Part shown: piece by piece, positions 9,158-11,665 of the stretch
Layout of the letters: each line of letters begins with the position of its first letter
Numbering within the stretch: position 1 is the stretch's first letter
Assembly: GCA_021838785.1 (NCBI GenBank)
Contig: JAKCCV010000002.1
Coordinates: 124,001-188,000, forward strand
Origin: Acidobacteriota bacterium
GTDB taxonomy: Bacteria; Acidobacteriota; Terriglobia; UBA7540
Direction: 5' to 3'
Length of the DNA stretch: 64,000 nt
Translations under genes and position numbers: made by a program
The notes under the pieces: model-generated
Told to the model about the DNA's origin: nothing
Seen by the model: the letters and a program-made list of their open reading frames with translations, nothing else
Database searches by the model: none

Positions 9158-11092
9158 ATGTTTCGAGTCTTCAAAAAGCATCGGGAAAAGGTAAAAAAGT
9201 ATCTGCTGGTTTTTTTCCTGAGCATCGTGTCCATCGGCATGGTGGTGACACTGGCTCCTTTGCCGGTGGGCAATTCCAACTTGACGGCGGGCAACGTCCT
9301 GGCGACCATCGGGAGCGACAAGATCACCACCACCGACTTGCAGAACTCCATTGAAAGCCGCCTGCGTAATTCCCCTCTTGGCAACGACGCAGGGATCATC
9401 CCCGCGATCGCCGGGACGGTTCTGAACGATATGGTGATGCAGCGCGCGCTGGCGCGTCAAGCTAGCCGGATGGGTCTCGAGGTTTCTAATCAGGAGCTTC
9501 GAGCGGCGCTGGAAGCCGAACCGTGGCTCTATCAAAACGGCAAATTCATCGGGGTCAGCCAGTATGAGAACATCGTCGAGGAAGAGACGGGAATGTCGGT
9601 GCCGGAGTTTGAAGAACAGCTCCGCCAGAGCCTGCTGCTTGACAAATTGAGGTCCGTCATTTCCGACGGTGTGGACGTCACGCCGGCGGAAGTCCATCAA
9701 GCGTTTCTCCGGCGCAACACGAAAGCTAAGATTCGCTACGTTGTTTTTGACCCGAGCCAATTCCTCAAGTCGGTTCAGGTGACCCCCGCCGCTCTCCAGA
9801 CCTATTTTGACCAACATCGTGACCGCTATCGCATCCCCGAGGAACGCCAGGTTCAGTATGTCATCATTAGCCCCGACCAGGTGCGGTCGCAGGTGAAGAT
9901 CACCAGCCAAGAAATGCAGAATTACTACACGCAGCACCTGGCGGATTACCGAGTTCCCAACCGCGTTAAAGTTGCCCAGATTCTTTTCAAAACAACGGGC
10001 AAGAGTCCGCAGGAGATCGCGGCGCTCAAGCAGACGGCAGAGTCGGTTTTGGCCAAAATCAAGGCGGGAGCCCATTTTAGTCAAATGGCCGAGCAATACT
10101 CCGAGGACGCCAGCGCGGCCAACGGAGGTCTGATTGGCTGGATTACGCACGGGCAAACCGTCAGGGCCTTTGAAGACGCAGCCTTTTCGCTCAGCCCCGG
10201 GCAAGTCAGCGGACTGATCCAGACGAGCTATGGTTTGGTGATTATCAAAGTTTTGGCCAAGCAAACCGCGCATCTCCAAACCTTCTCGGAGGTTCAAGAC
10301 TCGATTCGCGCAACCTTAATGCAGCGGAAAATTGCAGACGCACAGCAGGCGCTGGCACAAAATCTAGAGAACAAGCTGGCGGCCCAGCCGAGCCAATTTG
10401 CAACCATTGCGAAGCAGGCGGGGCTGACCGTCAAACAGACTCCACGTTTCAAGTACAACACGACGCTGCCTGATTTCGGTTCAAGTCAAGCCTTCCAAAA
10501 CCTGGCCTTTCAACTCCAAGTAGGACAGGTTGGCCAGCCGATCAGCATCCCAATGGGCGTGGCCCTTATTCAGCTTACGAAAATTGTTCCGGCTCACGAT
10601 CCCAAGCTCAGCGAGGTCCAAGCCAGGGTGGAGCAAGACTATCGCCAAGCGCAATCTAAGCTCATCGCCGCGCAGAAAGCGAAGGAATTCGCCCAAGCGG
10701 TCCAGAAAGGTGATTTCCAAACAGTCGCAAAAACGGAGGGTTACGTTGTCAAGGAAAGCAAGGATTTTTCGAGGCAGGATTACATTGACAATCTGGGCAG
10801 CGGTTCCAACCTTCCGGCAGCGTTTACGCTAGCTCCCGGCCAAACCGGCGGCCCGGTCTCCATCGGAAGCAAGCAAGTGGTTTTCCAGGTGGTCTCGCAG
10901 ACACCTCCGAGCGAGGCTGAATTTGCGGCTCAGAAAGACCAAATTCGCGAGGAGCTGCTCGACCAGGCCCGGAATTTGGCGTGGGAAGTTTACCGCGACA
11001 ACCTGAAAGCGTATCTTATCCGCACCGGCCAACTGAAAATGAATCCCACAGCGCTCAAAACCTTTTTAGCCGGCTTCACGAATCAGGACTGA
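9158..11092 (+). CDS. Membrane-anchored PpiC/SurA-type peptidyl-prolyl isomerase (PpiD-like)
   Basis: A 644-aa envelope foldase. It has a short cytosolic N-terminus, one membrane anchor at about residues 12-35 (YLLVFFLSIVSIGMVVTLAP), a SurA-like chaperone region (about 45-220) and a parvulin PPIase domain at about residues 265-367 with the usual core AQYSEDASAANGGLIGW. A second, decayed PPIase-like or chaperone region follows in the C-terminal 250 residues. This architecture is that of PpiD: a membrane-tethered helper for proteins leaving the Sec translocon. ATG with GAAGGAG 6-8 bp upstream. The gene diverges from the FecR-mre series and is followed after 48 bp by the AhpD-like gene. Confidence 0.88.
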   Translation: MFRVFKKHREKVKKYLLVFFLSIVSIGMVVTLAPLPVGNSNLTAGNVLATIGSDKITTTDLQNSIESRLRNSPLGNDAGIIPAIAGTVLNDMVMQRALARQASRMGLEVSNQELRAALEAEPWLYQNGKFIGVSQYENIVEEETGMSVPEFEEQLRQSLLLDKLRSVISDGVDVTPAEVHQAFLRRNTKAKIRYVVFDPSQFLKSVQVTPAALQTYFDQHRDRYRIPEERQVQYVIISPDQVRSQVKITSQEMQNYYTQHLADYRVPNRVKVAQILFKTTGKSPQEIAALKQTAESVLAKIKAGAHFSQMAEQYSEDASAANGGLIGWITHGQTVRAFEDAAFSLSPGQVSGLIQTSYGLVIIKVLAKQTAHLQTFSEVQDSIRATLMQRKIADAQQALAQNLENKLAAQPSQFATIAKQAGLTVKQTPRFKYNTTLPDFGSSQAFQNLAFQLQVGQVGQPISIPMGVALIQLTKIVPAHDPKLSEVQARVEQDYRQAQSKLIAAQKAKEFAQAVQKGDFQTVAKTEGYVVKESKDFSRQDYIDNLGSGSNLPAAFTLAPGQTGGPVSIGSKQVVFQVVSQTPPSEAEFAAQKDQIREELLDQARNLAWEVYRDNLKAYLIRTGQLKMNPTALKTFLAGFTNQD

Positions 11093-11140
11093 GCAAGTCA
11101 AACCACGGTTAGCGCCCACGAGGAGGCCACGTCGAAACTT

Positions 11141-11665
11141 ATGCCACGGCTGACCAAACTGCCCATCGAACAAGCCGATGCCACAAGCCGGCGCATTTTC
11201 GAAGATTTCATGAAGGAGCGCGGCAATGTTCCCAACATGTTCCGTACGGTTGCTCACCGGCCGGAGATCATGCACACGATGGTTGAGCACTTCCGTACGG
11301 TCATGAATGCCGGCACCGTGGAGAAGAAGCTCAAGGAGTTGGTGGCGGTTCGCGTCTCCCATTTGAACGGCTGTGATTACTGACTGAGCTCCCACACCGC
11401 CTTGGCAAGGCGGTTCGGAGCCTCACGCGAGGAACTCGAAGCGCTTGCATCCGGCGACCTGAGTCCTTTTCCTCCACGAGAGCAGGCTGCGCTTGGCTTT
11501 GCTGAAAAGCTCACCCTTGACTCCAACAACGTTCCCGACGGACTGTTTAGCACCCTTCGCCAGCATTTTGACGAGGGCGAAATTGTTGAAATCGCGGCGG
11601 TCGCGGGGCTCTTCAATTACTTCAATCGCCTTAACAATGTCCTTCAAATTGAGCCGACAAAATAA
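11141..11665 (+). CDS. AhpD-like (carboxymuconolactone decarboxylase family) selenoprotein with CxxU motif
   Basis: I read one 174-aa protein through an in-frame TGA at codon 81 (11381-11383). The N-terminal 80 residues end in VSHLNGCDY, and the same frame continues LSSHTALARRFGAS after the TGA. AhpD-family redox proteins carry C-x-x-C followed three residues later by His (for example CxYCxxxH). Here that segment reads C-D-Y-TGA-L-S-S-H, so the TGA occupies exactly the second, resolving cysteine. Both halves belong to one family, the frame is unbroken to a TAG... TAA-type end at 11665, and a hairpin directly follows the TGA (separate entry). The family makes thiol-dependent peroxidase or related redox proteins. 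ATG with GAGGAGG upstream. The alternative, a nonsense mutation, is less likely because the rest of the frame is intact and well conserved in character. Confidence 0.85.
11381..11424 (+). promoter_or_regulatory. Candidate bacterial SECIS element (TGA plus stem-loop)
   Basis: Directly after the TGA (11381-11383) lies a perfect 7-bp stem, CCGCCTT (11397-11403) with AAGGCGG (11407-11413), closed by the 3-nt loop GGC. A lower stem pairs GAG/CTCC (11386-11392) with GGAG/CTC (11417-11424) around one bulged C. The loop G sits about 21 nt after the TGA, within the 15-25 nt usual for bacterial SECIS elements, which need a G in a small apical loop for SelB binding. Folding was judged by eye. Confidence 0.75.

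Follow-up and report, generated by a model that had tools for sequence, protein, structure and literature searches.

Does the TGA codon at positions 11,381 to 11,383 terminate an AhpD-like gene, or is it read as selenocysteine (Sec) within a longer protein? The question is raised by a locus on a 64,000-nucleotide stretch of an Acidobacteriota genome (assembly GCA_021838785.1, contig JAKCCV010000002.1), which is referred to as the window in the following. The reading frame starts with an ATG at position 11,141 and continues through 80 codons, the TGA, a further 93 codons and the stop codon TAA (11,663–11,665); translated with TGA as U, the coding sequence (11,141–11,665, forward strand) specifies a peroxidase-related, AhpD-like protein of 174 amino acids. 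Direct reading of the sequence also revealed a candidate ribosome-binding site, GAGGAGG (11,120–11,126, forward strand), located 14 nt upstream of the ATG. In an ordinary list of open reading frames, the gene is broken into pieces of 80 and 87 amino acids. The residues around the TGA are NGCDY-U-LSSH, so that Sec81 represents the second position of a CxxU motif (C78-D-Y-U81). The translation thus agrees with the first-pass annotation of this DNA, which had described two same-frame halves of one protein separated by a TGA at the second Cys of a C-x-x-C motif.

The family assignment was obtained from the read-through protein. A single CMD domain (PF02627, 77.8 bits) spans the TGA between residues 41 and 122, and the model TIGR01926, 'peroxidase-related enzyme', was matched with 100 bits, above its cut-off of 81.8. 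For AhpD sensu stricto (TIGR00777), a score of 26 bits was obtained, which is below the cut-off of 191.95. Full-length similarity to the YciW-related (seleno)protein model NF053654 amounted to 87 bits, far below the cut-off of 310, and the two seleno-specific models of NCBI, NF053654 and NF041238, both miss the protein by a wide margin. Automatic annotation may still be splitting this gene in two. Taken as a whole, the sequence evidence argues for a real selenoprotein in which UGA is read as Sec, a reading to which we assign a probability of roughly 95%.

Conservation of the TGA codon and of the downstream hairpin

Homologues of the read-through protein were searched for among 200 relatives, the copy from genome G002 and L051 being counted once, as they are apparently the same record. 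Exactly one TGA was found in each of 12 further full-length copies from the same genus and family, and TGA-bearing copies were also present in less closely related members of the class as well as outside it, among them L035, L036, L037, L040, L045 and L052, where the TGA likewise occupies codon 81. All homologue TGAs fall on the same codon and yield C-x-Y-U upon translation, and a Cys is aligned with this codon in L032, L038, L039, L041–L044 and L046. None of the full-length homologues translated ends at the TGA site. The alignment of homologues, which the first-pass annotation had proposed as a check, consequently gave either a retained TGA or a Cys at one and the same codon. The closest relative from a named genome, Acidobacteriota MAG YP1.bin18 (JAKASC010000036), shares 95% protein identity.

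In those non-sister pairs for which dN/dS was computable, the values 3' of the hairpin ranged between approximately 0.07 and 0.16 and were similar to those for the first half of the gene; the closest pair, L021/L051, gave 0.24 to 0.44, a value resting on very few changes. Judged from these ratios, purifying selection acts on both halves of the gene alike.

Directly downstream of the TGA, a SECIS-like hairpin was identified (11,397–11,413, forward strand), which consists of the 7-bp stem CCGCCTT/AAGGCGG and the apical loop GGC (11,404–11,406), located 20 nt 3' of the TGA. The region 11,381–11,435 was predicted to fold with −23 kcal/mol (z = −2.5), and 4 out of 200 shuffled sequences were equally stable. 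Among the 44 TGAs in the window featuring at least 60 open codons on each side, two others are accompanied by an 8-bp stem, one of these being the same hairpin read on the opposite strand. Since comparable stems also accompany other TGAs of this DNA, the folding energy alone was not taken as proof. The published rules for bacterial SECIS elements describe a loop of 3–9 nt, a stem of 4–16 bp, a G in the first two loop positions, a distance of 16–37 nt from the UGA and a minimum free energy of ≤ −7.5 kcal/mol (PMC13188914); the hairpin of this study lies within these ranges, with its 3-nt loop GGC, its 7-bp stem, its distance of 20 nt and −23 kcal/mol for the 55-nt stretch. An Rfam search at the hairpin site returned chance matches on the other strand only, and no Rfam family covers the hairpin.

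By itself, the hairpin is weak evidence; its conservation goes beyond chance. It is identical in 12 of the 13 family copies, and the single change observed in L024 retains the pair as G-U. In the more distant copies, compensatory stem changes were found, namely GTC..GAC in L035, L037 and L040, GTCC..GGAC in L036, and GCTTT..AAAGC in L045. Across 19 TGA-bearing sequences, all stem cells are paired (133/133), with two-sided changes in 5 out of 7 pairs; this covariation was not reached by any of 500 shuffles, and sliding the partner strand destroyed the signal. RNAalifold, run unaided, predicted the same 7-bp stem. Furthermore, synonymous identity at codons 86–92 amounted to 99.8% versus 36% expected, and the 13 family copies are free of synonymous changes in the codons that make up the stem (codon identity 1.00 versus 0.27–0.38 expected). 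The hairpin codons represent less common choices (TTG, GCA and AGG). The excess in synonymous identity was 0.64 at the hairpin versus 0.26 for the best other seven-codon window in the gene, and the chance that the peptide TALARR would give rise to a 7-bp stem under the codon usage of these genes was calculated to be approximately 2.6 × 10⁻⁵. Folding and covariation therefore uphold the perfect 7-bp stem with a GGC loop that had been noticed from the letters of the window. The lower stem proposed at the same time (pairing 11,389–11,392 with 11,417–11,420; 11,389–11,420, forward strand) is clear in the window, but is weakly conserved, with 67% of cells being paired in relatives.

These results also bear on the most obvious alternative, a pseudogene or sequencing error in which the TGA would be a true stop or a misassembled TGC or TGT codon. 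Such codons do occur in some relatives (TGT in L032 and TGC in L046); however, the same TGA is carried by at least 12 relatives assembled from other genomes, the second half of the gene evolves under purifying selection, and the hairpin covaries. An artefact or a decayed gene is accordingly considered very improbable.

Two further observations were made among the homologues. L047 (positions 1501–1932, G030:C134) has lost the hairpin through an in-frame deletion of approximately 28 codons, and its TGA stays; genome G030 encodes selA and selB, and this copy may represent either a gene in decay or a misassembly. L048, L049, L050 and further matches constitute a second, more distant CxxU AhpD-like group with an in-frame TGA, which originates from other families of the class; L048 and L049 feature a hairpin of the type CGCTTC-GGC-GAAGCG.

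Sec-decoding genes and Cys-codon relatives

The source assembly (3.42 Mb, 98% complete) encodes a tRNA-Sec with the anticodon UCA (74.9 bits), selA (570 bits), selB (352 bits, 641 amino acids) and selD (L018, G000:C36:63703–64629), and thus all four genes for which a genome search had been suggested were detected. The selD gene contains a single in-frame TGA near its start, read as AAGUAAK, the usual Sec position of SelD, and on this sequence evidence it is likely a second selenoprotein of this genome. Within the window, a further four TGAs that lie in long open stretches and are accompanied by a stem of at least 6 bp (39,443 and 42,511 on the reverse strand, 33,704 and 45,018 on the forward strand) were read through, and neither a redox domain nor a TGA-spanning Pfam domain suggesting a selenoprotein was found.

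The genomic context is also relevant for the idea that the UGA is read through or reassigned in a selenium-independent manner, with an amino acid such as Trp or near-cognate Cys being inserted. The Cys residues replacing the TGA in homologues would fit this idea. However, TGA serves as an ordinary stop elsewhere, both in the upstream PpiD-like gene, which terminates with TGA at 11,090–11,092, and at the end of the AhpD-like orthologues L025 and L026. Moreover, the Sec machinery is present in the genome, and the copies that lack the hairpin are precisely those Cys-codon copies that come from Sec-negative genomes, so there is very little to recommend read-through without selenium over decoding as Sec.

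The Cys-codon relatives act as natural controls for Sec decoding. In f10, a family of the same class, six Cys-codon copies (L038, L039, L041, L042, L043 and L044) originate from genomes that are 99–100% complete, and selA or selB was not detected over cut-off in any of these six genomes; the four TGA copies of f10 all come from genomes encoding selA and selB. The six Cys copies have lost the hairpin, form one clade (support 97/86) and, in 6/6 cases, have the first Cys of the motif replaced by Thr (TxxC). The absence of selA/selB from 6/6 TxxC genomes versus the presence of selA in 18/19 TGA-form genomes corresponds to a Fisher p value of 4 × 10⁻⁵, which is uncorrected for shared ancestry and overstates independence, because the TxxC copies represent one evolutionary event. 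For G003, a TGA-form MAG of 84% completeness, selA and selB were not found, likely as a consequence of a missing contig. In G002 (57% complete) and G007 (91% complete), selB did not exceed the cut-off, and selA is present in both.

Two other Cys-codon copies belong to Sec-decoding lineages. L032 (G033:C306), a member of the window's family, carries TGT (CxxC) together with a fully intact hairpin, and its genome still encodes selB. It probably represents a recent change from Sec to Cys with a fossil SECIS, and in this respect is reminiscent of previously reported SECIS remnants that persist where Sec has been replaced by Cys (PMC1794560). In L046, the codon is TGC, the hairpin is decayed, and similarity is lost after residue 107, followed by stops. 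Since one Sec-decoding lineage has a Cys copy and another a broken Cys copy, Sec is therefore not indispensable.

Within one set of orthologues, the clade thus provides a natural Sec-to-Cys series. It comprises Sec copies with their SECIS, a Cys copy that retains an intact fossil SECIS, a Cys copy whose hairpin has decayed, and Cys copies from genomes without Sec machinery, in which both the hairpin and the partner cysteine are lost. A far-reaching interpretation would be that the transition from CxxU to TxxC upon loss of Sec decoding led to a one-cysteine mechanism, that the Sec form is chemically distinct, and that the gene is part of a module with the PpiD-like gene in the window's family; this combination is considered unlikely. 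If it were true, the partner Cys would have been lost on the same branch on which Sec changed to Cys, the two-residue selenylsulfide cycle would have been given up, and the Sec form would differ from the Cys form in more than its speed.

Predicted active site, proposed function and gene neighbourhood

The AlphaFold2 model of the protein is all-helical (pLDDT 95.9) and reaches a TM score of 0.92 to the solved structures 2prr and 6k40, which represent peroxidase-related AhpD-like proteins; the same proteins were retrieved by a sequence profile. The AhpD active site, Glu...Cys-x-(His/Tyr)-Cys-xxx-His, is matched by E66, C78, Y80, U81 and H85, and the spacing E-x11-C-x-Y-U-xxx-H equals that of Glu36, Cys48, Tyr50, Cys51 and His55 in PA0269 (PMC3141380).

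In the proposed mechanism, the UGA at 11,381–11,383 would be decoded by tRNA-Sec and SelB, aided by the hairpin at 11,397–11,413, a step that the comparison with relatives supports. As suggested by fold and residues, Glu66, Cys78, Tyr80, Sec81 and His85 would then constitute the proton-relay site of AhpD. By established AhpD chemistry, the selenolate of Sec81 is expected to attack a hydroperoxide or the disulfide of an oxidised partner, and Cys78 would resolve Sec81 as a Cys-Sec selenylsulfide, to be reduced by a cellular dithiol. The first-pass reading of a Sec-containing redox protein is supported by the Sec machinery, the kept TGA, the covariation of the hairpin and purifying selection.

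Concerning the type of redox activity, a peroxidase, as suggested by fold and active-site residues, is somewhat favoured over another thiol-redox role. The selenoprotein could instead function as an AhpD-type adaptor or as a disulfide or selenylsulfide reductase for another enzyme, without being a peroxidase. AhpD of M. tuberculosis serves as an adaptor of AhpC, and PA0269, a Cys protein, is only a weak H₂O₂ reductase (PMC3141380), which makes the adaptor role a serious rival; in addition, the name of TIGR01926 derives from relatedness alone. In view of the weak activity of PA0269, the protein of the window may chiefly exchange disulfides. Against this, all five proton-relay residues are kept, and a Sec at the attacking position would suit peroxide chemistry, so that the adaptor role is regarded as plausible, yet second to the peroxidase.

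A PpiD/SurA-like peptidyl-prolyl isomerase with Rotamase and SurA_N_3 domains is encoded directly upstream (9158–11,092, forward strand), and a gene of this type was found there in the same orientation in every f1 locus where the contig reaches. No match to it was obtained in the available flanks of the f10 loci. The first-pass annotation had placed the redox protein beside an envelope foldase; the PpiD-like gene is indeed a conserved neighbour in the family, but an envelope redox role is unsupported. By inspection, the N-terminus of the AhpD-like protein (MPRLTKLPIEQ) contains no signal peptide, and the protein therefore probably resides in the cytoplasm rather than acting directly on or with an envelope foldase. 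Downstream, a 3-hydroxyacyl-CoA dehydrogenase/enoyl-CoA hydratase gene is common to some f1 loci. In the window, a glucuronyl-esterase-like protein (PF22244; 11,715–13,211, reverse strand) is encoded in the interval that separates the selenoprotein gene from a gene for fatty-acid oxidation; in L023, L024, L026 and L029, where the oxidation gene lies close to that of the selenoprotein, the glucuronyl-esterase-like protein had no match.

Comparison with known CxxU selenoproteins and AhpD-like proteins

Selenoproteins of this type have been described before. A CXXU CMD domain-containing protein and an AhpD-like selenoprotein were reported from the Sargasso Sea (PMC1088965), an 'AhpD-like 2, pfam02627, CxxU' entry is contained in the GOS data (PMC2398784), and both an 'AhpD-like protein, TIGR01926, CxxU' and a 'CMD-like protein, PF02627, CxxU' have been catalogued (PMC13188914). 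Such TIGR01926/PF02627 CxxU selenoproteins have been catalogued since 2005–2008, and the gene of the window is almost certainly an added member from a soil-type bacterium. For the Acidobacteriota, a survey from 2006 listed three selenoprotein families with four genes (PMC1794560). Within the literature on AhpD-like CxxU proteins in this phylum, only a deep-learning paper was found, featuring Occallatibacter riparius with three known selenoproteins. The gene is accordingly a well-supported addition to the small set of Acidobacteriota selenoproteins, and also an example of an AhpD-like CxxU gene that is broken in two by ordinary ORF calling.

The catalogued CxxU selenoproteins, known by their descriptions, were compared by family model and motif. 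They share with the protein of this study the same families, Sec as the second residue of CxxU and a SECIS directly downstream; in contrast to them, the gene described here belongs to an Acidobacteriota family and features a near-invariant hairpin with a GGC loop and a conserved PpiD-like neighbour. The fold (TM 0.92 for 2PRR and 6K40) and an active site made up of Glu, Cys, Tyr, a second chalcogen residue and His are shared with PA0269 from Pseudomonas aeruginosa (2O4D, 2IJC; PMC3141380) and with the peroxidase-related proteins 2PRR, 2PFX, 6K40, 2OYO and 3C1L. However, PA0269 and these five proteins, with 26–36% identity, carry Cys where the protein of the window has Sec. Compared with these known systems, the graded Sec-to-Cys series accompanied by the loss of the partner Cys represents the modestly new part.
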